64,000 nucleotides of DNA from Bacillus sp. NP157. GTDB taxonomy: Bacteria; Pseudomonadota; Gammaproteobacteria; Xanthomonadales; Rhodanobacteraceae. Location: positions 2,418,001 through 2,482,000 of the forward strand of contig CP076546.1 of the NCBI GenBank assembly GCA_018889975.1. Direction: 5' to 3'. The first letter of the stretch is position 1, and the number at the start of each line of letters is the position of its first letter. Positions 51,174 through 55,739 of this stretch are shown one piece after another. The notes below the pieces were generated by a model. The model searched no databases, was not told the DNA's origin, and saw nothing but the letters and a program-made list of their open reading frames with translations. The position numbers and the translations under genes are program-made.

Positions 51174-51701
51174 TCAGATCTTCTTCTTCGGACCGATCAT
51201 CATGACCATCTGGCGGCCTTCAAGACGGGGGAAGGACTCCACCACGCCGTCTTCGCCGATGTCCACCTGGATCTTGCGGGCCAGGTTCTGGCCGAGGTCC
51301 TGGTGGGACATTTCACGGCCGCGGAAGCGGATCGTGACCTTGACCTTGTCGCCTTCCTCAAGGAACTCGCGCATCTTGCGCAGCTTGATGTCGTAATCGC
51401 CCGTATCCGTGACCGGACGGAACTTCACTTCCTTGATTTCGACCTGCTTCTGCTTCTTCTTGGCAGCCGAGGCCTTCTTCTGGGCTTCGAACTTAAACTT
51501 GCCGAAATCCATGATCTTGCAGACCGGCGGATCGCCGTTCGGCTGGATTTCGACGAGGTCGAGACCGTCCTCTTCAGCGCGGCGGATGGCGTCACGGGTG
51601 TCCATGATGCCCAGCTGCTCGCCTTCGGGACCCAGTACGCGCACTTTCGGCACGCGGATCTCGTTGTTCTTGCGATTGCCCTTGTTATCGGTCGTAGCGA
51701 T
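51174..51701 (-). CDS. infC: Translation initiation factor IF-3, ATC start codon
   Basis: 175 residues when started at ATC (51701), close to the E. coli 180. The start gives MATTDNKGNRKNNEIRVPKV and follows GGAGGA by 7 nt. No ATG fits; the first in-frame standard codon (GTG, 51653) would remove the N-terminal domain start. Rare AUU/AUC/AUA starts are the basis of infC autoregulation, since IF-3 itself rejects them. Domains: N-terminal (VLGPEGEQLGIMDTRDAI), linker (KKKQKQVEIKEVKFRP) and C-terminal (VTIRFRGREMSH). Confidence 0.93.
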   Translation of the reverse strand: MATTDNKGNRKNNEIRVPKVRVLGPEGEQLGIMDTRDAIRRAEEDGLDLVEIQPNGDPPVCKIMDFGKFKFEAQKKASAAKKKQKQVEIKEVKFRPVTDTGDYDIKLRKMREFLEEGDKVKVTIRFRGREMSHQDLGQNLARKIQVDIGEDGVVESFPRLEGRQMVMMIGPKKKI

Positions 51702-51745
51702 ACCGCTATCCTCCAGAAGAATGATCTAAGTACCGGACCCGCGGC

Positions 51746-53647
51746 CTAGCGGCGGGTCTCGGCTTCCAAACGTTCGGCGAACTGGGCAACGGTCATGCTG
51801 CCGAGGTCTTCGCCACCGCGGGTACGTACGGAGATGGTACCCGTTTCCTTCTCGCGATCACCGACCACGACCAGATACGGCACCCTCTGCAACGTGTGCT
51901 CGCGGATTTTATATCCGACTTTTTCGTTGCGCAAATCGGAGTTCACCCTGAAGCCTTGTCCGACAAGGGCTTGGGTCACGTCTTGGACGTAATCGGCCTG
52001 GGCGTCCGTAATGCTGAACACCGCTGCCTGAATGGGGGCGAGCCAGGTCGGAAGCAACCCGGCATGGTGCTCGATCAGGATGCCGATGAAGCGCTCCATG
52101 GAGCCGACGATGGCCCGGTGCAGCATCACGGGGTGCTGGCGCTGGCTGTTTTCGTCCACGTACTCGGCGCCGAGGCGCTCGGGCATCATGAAATCGACCT
52201 GCATGGTACCGACCTGCCAGGCGCGGCCGATCGAGTCCTTCATGTGGTACTCGATCTTCGGGCCGTAGAAGGCGCCCTCGCCCGGCAGTTCCTCCCACTC
52301 GACCCCAGCCGCCGACAGCGCCTTGCGCAGGGCGTCCTCGGCACGGTCCCAGACCTCGTCGGCGCCGATGCGCTTTTCCGGGCGCAGGGCGATCTTCATG
52401 GCGATGTCGTTGAAGCCGAAGTCGGCATACACCTGCATCGCCTGGGCGTGGAACGCGGCCACTTCGGCCTCGATCTGCGCCGGGGTGCAGAAGATGTGGC
52501 CATCGTCCTGGGTGAATGCGCGCACGCGCATGATGCCGTGCAGCGCGCCGGACGGCTCGTTGCGGTGGCAGCCGCCGAACTCGCCGTAACGGATCGGCAG
52601 GTCGCGGTAGCTATGCAGGTTGGTGTTGAAGATCTGGATGTGGCCGGGGCAGTTCATCGGCTTCAGCGCATAGGTGCGCTTCTCCGACTCGGTAAAGAAC
52701 ATGTTCTCGTGGTAGTTGTCCCAGTGGCCGGACTTCTTCCACAGGCTCACGTCCATGATCTGCGGGCCGCGCACTTCCTGGTAACCGCTGCGCTTGTAGA
52801 CGCCGCGCACGTACTGCTCCACGGCCTGCCAGATGGCCCAGCCCTTGGGATGCCAGAAAATCATGCCCGGCGCTTCTTCCTGCATGTGGAACAGGTCGAG
52901 CTGCTTGCCGATGCGGCGGTGGTCGCGCTTTTCGGCTTCTTCCAGCTGGTGCAGGTAAGCCTTCAGGTCCTTGTCGTTAAGCCACGACGTGCCGTAGACG
53001 CGGGTCAGCATCTCGTTGTTGGAATCGCCGCGCCAGTAGGCGCCGGCCACCTTCATCAACTTGAACGCACGCAGCTTGCCCGTGTTGGACACATGCGGGC
53101 CGCGGCACAGGTCGGTGAACTCACCCTGCGTGTAGAGCGACAGCTCTTCGTTCGCCGGGATGCCCTCGATGATCTGGGCCTTGTATTCCTCGCCCAGGCC
53201 ACGGAAGAAGGTGATCGCCTCGTCGCGGCTCTTCACCGAGCGCGTGACCGGGATCTGTTCCTTGACGATCTTCTCCATCTCGGCCTGGATCACGCCGAGG
53301 TCGTCGGGCGTAAACGGACGCTCGTAGGCGAAGTCGTAGAAGAAGCCGTTGTCGATCACCGGGCCGATCGTGACCTGCGCGCCGGGGAACAGGCGCTGCA
53401 CGGCCTGGCCCAGCAGGTGGGCCGTGGAGTGGCGCAGGATATCCAGCGCCTCGGGGCTCTTCTCGGTGATGATTTCGAGCTTTGCGTCGTGCTCGATCGG
53501 GAAGCTGGCATCGACCAGCTTGCCGTCGACCTTGCCGGCCAGTGTGGCCTTGGCCAGGCCGGCGCCAATGGAGGCGGCCACGTCCTGGACGGTGACGGGA
53601 TGCTCGAACGGGCGCTGGCTGCCGTCGGGTAGCGTGATCTGGATCAT
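51746..53647 (-). CDS. thrS: Threonyl-tRNA synthetase
   Basis: 633 residues (E. coli 642). TGS domain at about 1-60 ([18 protein letters not shown]), editing domain with [16 protein letters not shown], then the class II core with zinc ligands in [10 protein letters not shown], and the anticodon-binding domain ([19 protein letters not shown]). The start at 53647 matches the family; the upstream extension to 53752 reads through the terminator and is rejected. The Shine-Dalgarno is poor (GGAACCCCGCCTC before the ATG), consistent with control from the leader. Confidence 0.97.
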
Positions 53648-53664
53648 GAGGCGGGGTTCCGGAC

Positions 53665-53690
53665 AAACAAAAAGGGCGCCAGGCGCCCTT
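53665..53690 (-). terminator. Terminator/attenuator 17 nt before thrS
   Basis: On the minus strand AAGGGCGCC, T, GGCGCCCTT, followed by TTTGTTTG. The T tract ends 17 nt before the thrS ATG, so any transcript from the promoter at 53803-53831 must pass it. Confidence 0.82.
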
Positions 53691-53697
53691 CGGGTAT

Positions 53698-53788
53698 CAA
53701 CGAAGACGTGGCGTGGGATCAGGTAGGGAAGCGCGTAGTCCGCATGTCGCACACTCGGCCAACGTTACCGCGGGCCACCTTTTCGTTG
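53698..53788 (-). promoter_or_regulatory. thrS leader long-range stem with competing local hairpin
   Basis: Arms CAACGAAAAGGTGGC (53788-53774) and GCCACGTCTTCGTTG (53712-53698) pair at 13 of 15 positions and enclose the Thr-rich mini-ORF. The 5' arm can instead pair locally: CCAACG (53789-53784) with CGTTGG (53764-53759). The two folds exclude each other. The 3' arm ends 7 nt before the terminator stem. Confidence 0.65.
53719..53745 (-). CDS. Candidate thrS leader peptide, MRTTRFPT
   Basis: An ATG at 53745 opens an 8-codon [11 protein letters not shown], with stop TGA at 53721-53719. Three of its eight codons are threonine (ACT, ACG, ACC). It sits inside the long-range stem and 28 nt before the terminator. 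No strong Shine-Dalgarno precedes it (CCGAGTG), so its translation is uncertain. By analogy with pheM and thrL, ribosome stalling at Thr codons could select the fold. Confidence 0.45.
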
Positions 53789-53802
53789 GGGTTACTACGG
53801 GG

Positions 53803-53831
53803 AAACTAAGTCCTGGAGCCGTTTCTGTCAA
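53803..53831 (-). promoter_or_regulatory. thrS promoter
   Basis: On the minus strand a perfect TTGACA (53831-53826), a 17-bp spacer, then TAGTTT (53808-53803). Start of transcription is expected near 53796, giving a leader of about 149 nt. Confidence 0.65.
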
Positions 53832-53861
53832 ATACGGGATGGGACATCGGGGCCCGCAGGA

Positions 53862-55739
53862 TCAGCGCAGGCGGCCGAGCAGGCCGGAAGCCCGTCGGGT
53901 CTTTCGGCTCACCGCGTAGCCGACGATATCCGCCGCGGCCAGCAAGGTGAAATGCCGCCGGGCCCGGGTCACGCCGGTGTAGACCAGCTCGCGGGTCAGC
54001 ACGGGCGACGGCTCGGGTGGCAGCACCAGCGCCGTGTGCTCGAATTCCGAGCCCTGCGACTTGTGCACCGTCATCGCATAGACCGTTTCCACCGCCGTGA
54101 GCCGGCTGGGGGTAACGAAGCGCACGCGCTCGCCGCCACTGTCGTCCATCACCAGGAAGGCCACGCGGAGCATCGTGCCACCCTGCCCGTCGGGTACCGC
54201 GAGCGTCACGCCGATATCGCCATTCATCAGGCCAACGGCGTAGTCGTTGCGTACCACGATCACCGGACGGCCTTCATACCAGCCCGTGGTTGCTCCGATC
54301 AGGCCGCGCTCGAGCAAGCCGAGCCCGATCCGCTCGTTCTGCCCGTCCACCCCGACATCGCCGCGGCGCGTCGCGCACAGCAGCTGGAACCGTCCGTACG
54401 CCGCCAGCGCGCCGCGGCCCCACGCCATGACCGCGTCGTCGCCGGCTCCCGCCCCGGGCCGGTGCGCGGCGATCCACTCGAGATAGTGCCGATAGCCCGG
54501 CGCGGCACCACGGCCGTCGATCGCCAGCGTGGCGACCGCCGCAGGCGATGCCGCCGCACGGGCGACATCGTCGAAGCCACCCGCAAACACCGATGCCACC
54601 GCCGCGGCATCGCCGCGATTGATCGCCGCCGCCAGCGCGCCGATGCCGCTGTCGCTTCCGAAGCGACGACTGCGCCGAAGCATCGTGACGCGCTGGTCGA
54701 GGGCCCACGCCGTGGCGTCGTCGGTCCACGCGCCCACATCGACGTCGGTGACACCGCGCAACCAGGTTCGCGTGGCATCGTCGTAATGGCCCACCTCGGC
54801 ACGCGCGCACAGGTCACCCAGCACCGCGCCCGCCTCCACCGACGACAGCTGGTCCTTGTCGCCGAGCAGGACCAGGCGTGCATCGGCCGGCAGCGCATCC
54901 AGCGTGGCCGCCATCATTTCCAGGTCGATCATCGACGCTTCGTCGATCACCAGCACGTCGACGTGGAGCGGGTTGTCGGCGTCGTGGCGGAACGCACGAC
55001 TATCTGGACGGCTGCCCAGCAGCCGGTGCAGCGTGGTGACTTCCGCGGGGATGCCATCGCGCACGCCGGCGTCGACGTCGAGCTGCGCCACCTGCGCGGC
55101 GATCGATGCATTGAGCCGTGCCGCCGCCTTGCCGGTCGGCGCCGCGAGGCGGATGCGCAGGCGCGGCTGCCCCGCGTTCGCCGCCAGCGTCTGCAGCAGG
55201 CCGAGCAGACGCACCACCGTGGTGGTCTTGCCGGTGCCGGGACCGCCGGTGATGACGCTGAAGGCACTGCGCGCGGCGATGGCGCAGGCGATCTTCTGCC
55301 AGTCGATGCCGCCCTCTTCCCGCGGGAAAAGCCGGTCGAGCTCGACGCCAAGGCCGGCGGGTTCTGGCAGCGGTGCCAGCCTCGACACGATGGCGGCGGC
55401 GACGCGGGCTTCATCGCGCCAGAAGCGGCGCAGGTAAAGCAGGCTGCCATCGAGCACGAGCGGCGCCGCGGGATTCCCGTCCGGCGAGGCGACGAGCGAC
55501 GCGCCGCTCAACCATCCTGCCGCGTTCGCCAGCGCCGGATCGCGCTCGGCCAGCGTGGCGACATCGGTGCAGATGTGGCCCTCGGCCAGTTCGTTGCTGA
55601 CGAGGGCGGCCGACGCCAGCACGCGTGCGTCGGCGGCAGGATCCAGCGTGGCGAGGAAGCGCGCGAAGGCGCGATCCATCGGCCGGAGCCGACCGTCATT
55701 CGTCGCGCTGTCCAGCCAGGCATCCAGGTCGGCGATCAT
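53862..55739 (-). CDS. recD: Exodeoxyribonuclease V alpha subunit RecD
   Basis: 5'-3' helicase of RecBCD. 625 residues (E. coli 608). Walker A ITGGPGTGKTTTVVRLL near 165, motif II VLVIDEASMIDLEMM, motif III LLGDKDQLSSVEAGAV, and the C-terminal UvrD-like motif MTVHKSQGSEFEH then YTGVTRARRH. The ATG overlaps the recB stop (55736-55739). Last gene of recC-recB-recD. Confidence 0.96.
   Translation of the reverse strand: MIADLDAWLDSATNDGRLRPMDRAFARFLATLDPAADARVLASAALVSNELAEGHICTDVATLAERDPALANAAGWLSGASLVASPDGNPAAPLVLDGSLLYLRRFWRDEARVAAAIVSRLAPLPEPAGLGVELDRLFPREEGGIDWQKIACAIAARSAFSVITGGPGTGKTTTVVRLLGLLQTLAANAGQPRLRIRLAAPTGKAAARLNASIAAQVAQLDVDAGVRDGIPAEVTTLHRLLGSRPDSRAFRHDADNPLHVDVLVIDEASMIDLEMMAATLDALPADARLVLLGDKDQLSSVEAGAVLGDLCARAEVGHYDDATRTWLRGVTDVDVGAWTDDATAWALDQRVTMLRRSRRFGSDSGIGALAAAINRGDAAAVASVFAGGFDDVARAAASPAAVATLAIDGRGAAPGYRHYLEWIAAHRPGAGAGDDAVMAWGRGALAAYGRFQLLCATRRGDVGVDGQNERIGLGLLERGLIGATTGWYEGRPVIVVRNDYAVGLMNGDIGVTLAVPDGQGGTMLRVAFLVMDDSGGERVRFVTPSRLTAVETVYAMTVHKSQGSEFEHTALVLPPEPSPVLTRELVYTGVTRARRHFTLLAAADIVGYAVSRKTRRASGLLGRLR

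Follow-up and report, generated by a model that had tools for sequence, protein, structure and literature searches.

A putative leader-peptide attenuator upstream of the threonyl-tRNA synthetase gene thrS in a Luteibacter-type bacterium and its relatives

Results

Layout of the thrS leader

The window, that is, the whole stretch of 64,000 nucleotides of DNA that was analysed, carries thrS on its minus strand, and the region studied here is the leader of this gene (53648-53831, minus strand). All coordinates refer to the window, and the features of the locus are given below with the evidence for each in brackets.

53826..53831, minus strand: -35 hexamer TTGACA of the presumed thrS promoter (sequence; TTGACN recurs among relatives)
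53803..53808, minus strand: presumed -10 element TAGTTT, 17-nt spacer (weak, 3/6 match to TATAAT)
53774..53788, minus strand: segment 1, a 5' arm, CAACGAAAAGGTGGC, that can pair with 53712-53698 (sequence, folding, covariation within the genus)
53776..53780, minus strand: AGGTG, putative Shine-Dalgarno-like element 5' of hairpin P1 (anti-Shine-Dalgarno complementarity among relatives)
53757..53776, minus strand: hairpin P1, a GGCC..GGCC stem with a further 3-bp stem inside, just 5' of the leader start region (compensatory changes)
53746..53752, minus strand: GTGCGAC, near-invariant, abutting the leader ATG on its 5' side (counts among 177 leaders)
53719..53745, minus strand: leader peptide ORF MRTTRFPT, 8 codons, stop TGA (conservation, frame test)
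53734..53739, minus strand: putative regulatory Thr codons 3 and 4, ACT ACG (conservation among 176 leaders)
53701..53713, minus strand: segment 2, putative antiterminator 5' arm, CGCCACGTCTTCG, starting 6 nt past the leader stop (fold of the window)
53677..53692, minus strand: segment 3, putative antiterminator 3' arm, overlapping the 5' arm, the loop and the first 3' bases of the terminator (fold, covariation)
53671..53691, minus strand: intrinsic terminator hairpin, GAAGGGCGC CTG GCGCCCTTT (terminator scan)
53665..53673, minus strand: terminator T tract (sequence)
51746..53647, minus strand: thrS, threonyl-tRNA synthetase (ThrRS), 633 aa, the regulated gene, ATG at 53647 (protein search)

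A preliminary description of this sequence had named a TTGACA with a 17-nt spacer, a leader of about 149 nt, an ORF of eight codons including three for Thr, and an intrinsic terminator whose T tract ends 17 nt before the thrS ATG. All of these are present as claimed, the -10 element being the weak one, and a strict sigma-70 promoter scan of the leader region found no promoter. Across 177 distinct leaders, TTGACN lies 45 to 130 nt 5' of the leader ATG in 113, compared with 3 for the same letters reversed. The mini-ORF reads ATG CGG ACT ACG CGC TTC CCT ACC TGA (53745-53719, minus strand), its ATG being 98 nt and its stop 71 nt from the thrS start. The terminator (53691-53671) is the sole one detected in the region 53300-54200, shuffled sequences yielding a mean of 0.5, and the 149-nt leader folds only moderately better than its shuffles (z -1.8; 9/200).

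Two observations concern gene starts at this locus. A GTG at 53752 is in the thrS frame through the entire leader and terminator (53752-53648, minus strand), generating a 668-aa ORF, and this in-frame GTG is a trap for automatic start-codon calling. In addition, a likely infC ORF lies 3' of thrS (51174-51745, minus strand) and is listed from a GTG, with 159 aa. Elsewhere infC is longer than 159 aa and is known for its rare start codon, and a rare upstream start codon is possible for the infC of the window.

Conservation of the mini-ORF and of its Thr codons

Relatives were collected by a search with the ThrRS protein only, which is free of leader-based selection bias. The best 80 of 569 named loci (L001-L080) have a ThrRS 77-95% identical to that of the window and are mostly named Luteibacter, Dyella, Rhodanobacter, Frateuria, Arenimonas, Lysobacter and relatives. 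Since the closest named loci among these best 80 of 569 are Luteibacter (L001-L004, 91-95% identity), the genus of the window is taken as Luteibacter. The motif (G/A)TG(C/T)GACATG followed by a short ORF was found in 75 of these 80 loci, which had been chosen by the ThrRS protein alone. Outside the 75, the leader of L007 is cut by a contig end and yet encodes MATTRFQR before a terminator, L047, L069 and L071 belong to a second leader type, and no clear leader is seen in L034. Together with L082-L202, a biased addition found via the leader's own DNA or a covariance model, the protein-search loci give 177 distinct leaders; counts over 176 leave out the window's own leader (L081).

Codon 3 specifies Thr in 176/176 leaders of relatives and codon 4 in 158/176, with all four Thr codons represented; at least two Thr fall within the first six codons in 167/176, and the ORF is exactly eight codons long in 149/176. 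The first in-frame stop occurs 15-30 nt past the A of the leader ATG in 175/177 leaders, compared with 3/177 in frame +2, while frame +1 (0/177) is poorly informative, being mostly closed immediately by the ATG-A overlap. Codon 3 is ACT in 168/176 leaders, ACT accounting for 3 of the 191 Thr codons in six genes of the window, and this nearly constant choice makes a nucleotide-level role of codon 3 possible. The motif preceding the leader ATG is GTGCGAC in 157/177 and GTGTGAC in 20/177, an invariance that is partly by construction, as leaders were picked via (G/A)TG(C/T)GACATG.

By a lax criterion, a terminator-like hairpin is present in 171 of the 177 distinct leaders and lacking in 6. The ORF position, the Thr codons and the terminator are kept in two families, so that the conservation in close relatives on which the preliminary description had made its proposal depend is found.

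Some loci depart from this layout or have additional elements. In six members of genus g58 (L150-L155) the leader ORF, MSTT(T/P)AH., and the core are kept, with a T tract that is poor or missing 0-70 nt past the stop; control in this genus may have moved to another mechanism. The T tract is also poor or missing in some leaders outside g58. A tRNA-Val(GAC) gene lies 5' of thrS in 26/177 leaders (for example L042, L054 and L058), and also in L047, L069, L205, L206, L208, L209 and many loci of the class; given the little room for a separate promoter in several Lysobacter-like loci, the tRNA and the thrS leader may be co-transcribed there. Finally, runs of short palindromic repeats (GGCCATCCATGGCCGGAC-like) are found between terminator and thrS in four Dyella relatives (L014, L019, L025 and L029).

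Covariation of the post-stop segment with the terminator

A pairing that the preliminary description had not named, between 53713-53701 and 53692-53677 (13 bp), forms the putative antiterminator of the window. Covariation was assayed on 60 dissimilar representatives, drawn from 160 of the 177 leaders, by pairing in silico the first 24 nt past the leader stop with the terminator of the same species and with those of other species. The post-stop segment pairs better with its own terminator (-16.2 versus -14.3 kcal/mol, z -6.4, 0/5000 permutations), with the control pairings S1xT and ORFxT at chance and S1xORF and ORFxS2 worse than chance in the same representatives. Permutation within families, with a family split assigned by hand, gave z -5.8 and 0/5000. 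The signal is strong in the 35 representatives outside the window's family, which belong to the sister family (0/5000), and weak in the 25 of the window's own family (z -1.5, 347/5000), where the test has less power, both partners being more alike between species. Related sequences inflate permutation tests of this kind, and the permutations correct for relatedness only partly. The pairing can also be read directly from the sequences, as CCCAAG/CTTGGG in L058, CCCGAG/CTCGGG in L073 and CCAGGC/GCCTGG in L042.

We then considered growing transcripts of the window, assuming a ribosome edge 16 nt from the P-site codon. With codon 3 or 4 in the A-site, the most stable fold is the antiterminator (-14.9 kcal/mol) until the terminator is one base short of completion, and with the leader stop codon in the A-site the best fold is the terminator (-14.1). 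The completed terminator is preferred in both ribosome states (-15.3), its mean pair probability being 0.70-0.71 with the ribosome stalled versus 0.95 with the ribosome at the stop. The switch in the window would thus be kinetic, or incomplete, and we infer a kinetic rather than an equilibrium mechanism. Among the 60 representatives, 24 show a full switch at equilibrium, compared with 7.65 when the post-stop segment is shuffled (sd 2.3, maximum 12, 20 runs), and the remaining 36 fail to do so, among them the congener L001 (0.91 and 0.94).

In the window, all ribosome states tested leave the complete terminator as the favoured equilibrium fold. This would also suit a different explanation, by which the mini-ORF does no more than raise thrS translation through re-initiation and the hairpin terminates transcription partially and constitutively. 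Re-initiation at leader ORFs has been put forward as a general phenomenon (PMC4833913), and in the window the leader stop lies 71 nt before the thrS ATG. Among relatives, however, leader ATG and thrS are anywhere from 91 to 635 nt apart (median 142), and re-initiation gives no reason to expect Thr codons or covariation between post-stop segment and terminator. We therefore regard this explanation as very unlikely.

The long arms and the local hairpin

The preliminary description had pointed to two long arms pairing at 13 of 15 positions, and this is confirmed: arms 53788-53774 and 53712-53698 form 13/15 Watson-Crick pairs, and arms as good arose once when the 149-nt leader was dinucleotide-shuffled 200 times. 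It had also proposed aligning relatives to look for compensatory changes in these arms and for retention of the Thr codons. The Thr codons are retained; the arms co-vary within the genus (14/5000 in 15 Luteibacter-type leaders), but not across both families. Specifically, all 44 leaders of the CACGYCT subset gave 2/5000, the other 29 leaders of that subset showed no covariation (680/5000), and the 1:2 pairing as a trait of both families was rejected (1109/5000 in 60 representatives). The most fitting interpretation of the long arms is a putative 1:2 anti-antiterminator belonging to the genus. The 6-bp local hairpin said to compete for the same 5' arm, which we tested as CAACG/CGTTG, is present in the window but in 0/15 other leaders of the genus, and is therefore unlikely to be functional.

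Hairpin P1 and ribosome loading

In an alignment of 72 sequences, from which L070 and L075 were left out as lacking P1, all 6 of 6 P1 pairs of the RNAalifold structure show two-sided change with the pair kept, and one P1 pair is broken or gapped in 9 of the 72. The 16-nt stretch 5' of P1 has an anti-Shine-Dalgarno complementarity of at least 5 nt in 150/176 leaders, compared with 1/176 for a neighbouring 12-nt stretch. A second, weak Shine-Dalgarno-like GAG lies at -11, nearer the leader start, in 149/177 leaders and may serve as an alternative ribosome site.

The two leaders without P1 read GAGGTGCGACATG (L070) and AGGTGCGACATG (L075), with AGGTG at a normal distance from the start. The same holds for four of the five f12 leaders, which read GAGGTGGCACATG, while the fifth (L333) reads GGAGTGTGGGACATG and favours the nearer GAG. 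AGGTG at a normal distance where P1 is absent suggests that P1 bridges the Shine-Dalgarno element and the start codon; the probable role of P1 is to place the upstream AGGTG close to the start codon or to influence how the ribosome loads. A hairpin between Shine-Dalgarno element and start is found in T4 gene 38/25, and the order of elements in the thrS leader (AGGTG, hairpin, start codon) is alike. Unlike the T4 sites, the thrS leader has the second GAG nearer the start, and the function of its hairpin is a putative one.

A second hairpin type (type B), consisting of GGAG or GAG, a hairpin, ACGATCACC and ATG ACG CG, occurs in f3, f4 and two f1 genera, its arms being mostly GTTC/GAAC, GTCC/GGAC or GCCC/GGGC. 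Matches to the type-B pattern in L327, L331 and L332 look unrelated, having no hairpin or terminator, and were rejected. In 13 of 21 other leaders, from several families (L209, L211, L216, L217, L221, L337, L339, L340, L345-L348 and L350), a -10-like TANNNT ends 6-8 nt before the leader ATG, compared with 0-5/21 at six places upstream; leader peptides with this arrangement are predicted to have leaderless starts.

Distribution of Thr leaders across the order

A covariance model of the core matches 149 of the 299 genomes of the order that were sampled, once per genome, all in families f1 and f2 save one 86%-complete f4 genome. In a sample of the class it matches 3/274 genomes, all of the same order. 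No second copy of the core was found with the strict filters applied in both searches: each matching genome gave one model match, and the window's own genome gave one pattern match.

For loci without the core, we scored Thr repeats (TT or TxT) in the ORF preceding the terminator. The first set consisted of the first 20 order genomes listed, 19 of them readable (the partial L222 was left out). Thr was repeated in 13/19, followed by Ala with 5, and both a terminator-like hairpin and a candidate ORF were present in 17/19. A fresh set of 24 hand-picked genomes, two of which (G190 and G244) gave no match, provided 22 loci that had not been used to form the idea. Thr was repeated in 13/22 and the next residue, Gly, in 5; four of these loci, each with Thr, come from genera already present in the first set, and without them the count is 9/18. 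Including the core, Thr leaders occur in 10 of the 12 families of the order and were not found in f6 (1 genome) and f10 (5 genomes). The idea that all members of the order carry a Thr leader was rejected: none was found in L204, L210, L212, L338, L343, L344, L349 and L351-L354, and the ORFs of L203, L206, L219 and L347, with one or two Thr each, failed the repeat test. Outside the order, where 80 of 114 genomes of the class were used, one for each of 80 gammaproteobacterial families, Thr was repeated in 2/80; a terminator-like hairpin is present in 54/80 and a candidate ORF in 22/80.

These counts bear on the possibility that common descent of a GC-rich leader accounts, by accident, for the Thr-Thr codons and the hairpins. 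Members of the genus are indeed closely related, and relatedness inflates the permutation tests. Against such an accident, Thr codons also precede a terminator in further leaders of the order whose sequences seem unrelated, the same test reveals no Thr excess in the 80 other families, and the fresh loci (Thr in 13/22) weaken it further. It appears extremely unlikely.

Search for an operator of the E. coli type

The leader could instead be a protein- or tRNA-binding operator, of the type bound by ThrRS in E. coli or a T-box, in which the small ORF would be incidental. E. coli thrS is controlled by ThrRS acting on a tRNA-like leader, and in the leaders studied here P1 and GTGYGAC are conserved beyond the apparent need of a plain ribosome site. 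A strict anticodon-loop pattern was nevertheless found in 0/177 leaders and in 0/19 further loci of the order, versus 22/80 in other families, the latter being a low estimate because even E. coli K-12 escapes this pattern. A looser loop test, which does find the E. coli K-12 hairpin GTGATCT-TTCGTGT-GGGTCAC, was positive in 30/80 elsewhere as well as in E. coli; the 32/177 obtained here is at background, judged by the control triplets CTG (31) and TCG (37), of which TCG overlaps CGT. In addition, an operator leaves the in-frame stops and the synonymous Thr codons unexplained. Rfam 15 gave no family match up to E 5 on 53600-53900, and a T-box, suggested by the likeness of AGGTGGCCCGCG to T-box sequence, was rejected on this ground. 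Altogether, we consider an operator unlikely.

Discussion

The data support the reading that the thrS leader is a ribosome-mediated transcription attenuator sensing the supply of charged tRNA-Thr, to which we assign a probability of roughly 0.85. The attenuation proposed in the preliminary description gains support from the conserved ORF, Thr codons and terminator, and from an antiterminator (2:3 pairing) whose covariation, as computed, is present in the sister family and weak in the window's own. Translation of the ORF, stalling and the direction of the response would be those of the class to which such leaders belong.

In the mechanism that we propose, transcription would begin about 150 nt 5' of thrS and a ribosome would load on the mini-ORF. 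When Thr-tRNA is scarce, the ribosome would stall at codons 3-4 and leave the post-stop segment free; this segment (53713-53701) could then pair with the 5' arm and loop of the terminator (53692-53677) in the growing transcript, and such pairing would delay or prevent the terminator, so that thrS would be transcribed. When Thr-tRNA is plentiful, the ribosome would reach the stop and mask the start of segment 2, allowing the terminator to form. If the ORF were left untranslated, segment 1, which includes AGGTG, could pair with segment 2, and termination would be the default, at least in this genus.

A broader picture, which is tentative and which we regard as rather doubtful, would be that most families of the order control thrS by Thr leader-peptide attenuation, versus an E. 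coli-style ThrRS operator in other Gammaproteobacteria, with several modes of ribosome loading (leaderless, plain Shine-Dalgarno and two hairpin-bridged forms). In the window, the location of the Shine-Dalgarno element within segment 1 would make ribosome loading and the termination decision a single RNA switch. Most families of the order do seem to regulate thrS with a translated sensor, and this allows two feedback designs for one essential gene to be compared as they occur in nature. The hairpin between AGGTG and the start, absent in L070 and L075, is a testable case for structured ribosome sites. Moreover, as the leader has no Rfam match and the core occurs in 149/299 sampled genomes of the order, a model of the core would help annotation.

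The claim in the preliminary description that no precedent was known for thrS was slightly overstated: a thrL leader peptide before thrS, MKRVRPFLETTPGFVPAR, with two Thr, has been predicted in Streptomyces lividans (PMC8079986). The two systems share a Thr-containing leader ORF before thrS. The S. lividans case differs in belonging to an actinobacterium and in being leaderless, and its authors report no clear Rho-independent terminator (PMC8079986). In the available portion of a terminator survey of 302 species, E. coli ThrRS is named only as self-regulating, and thrS is not mentioned in the main text (PMC2965389).

In the literature searched, whose coverage takes in few subscription journals, no thrS attenuator was described for this group. 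The survey of synthetase attenuators by Lopatovskaya et al. (2010) may contain such a prediction. Leader-peptide control of synthetase genes is already established for pheST.

The textbook case for thrS is that of E. coli, where the synthetase represses its own translation via a tRNA mimic. The gene is the same and the purpose presumably so; the strict operator pattern was found in 0/177 and 0/19 loci here, and control would be transcriptional. The leader-peptide attenuators of E. coli, pheST (pheM), trp and thrABC, are the nearest in design. Unlike these, the leader described here precedes thrS, has an ORF of eight codons with two to three Thr and a hairpin between AGGTG and the start, and matches no Rfam family. 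Like them, it combines a short ORF carrying cognate codons with what would be termination by default and with an antiterminator exclusive with the terminator, an exclusivity that holds for the group and for the growing transcripts of the window, and not at equilibrium once the terminator is complete.
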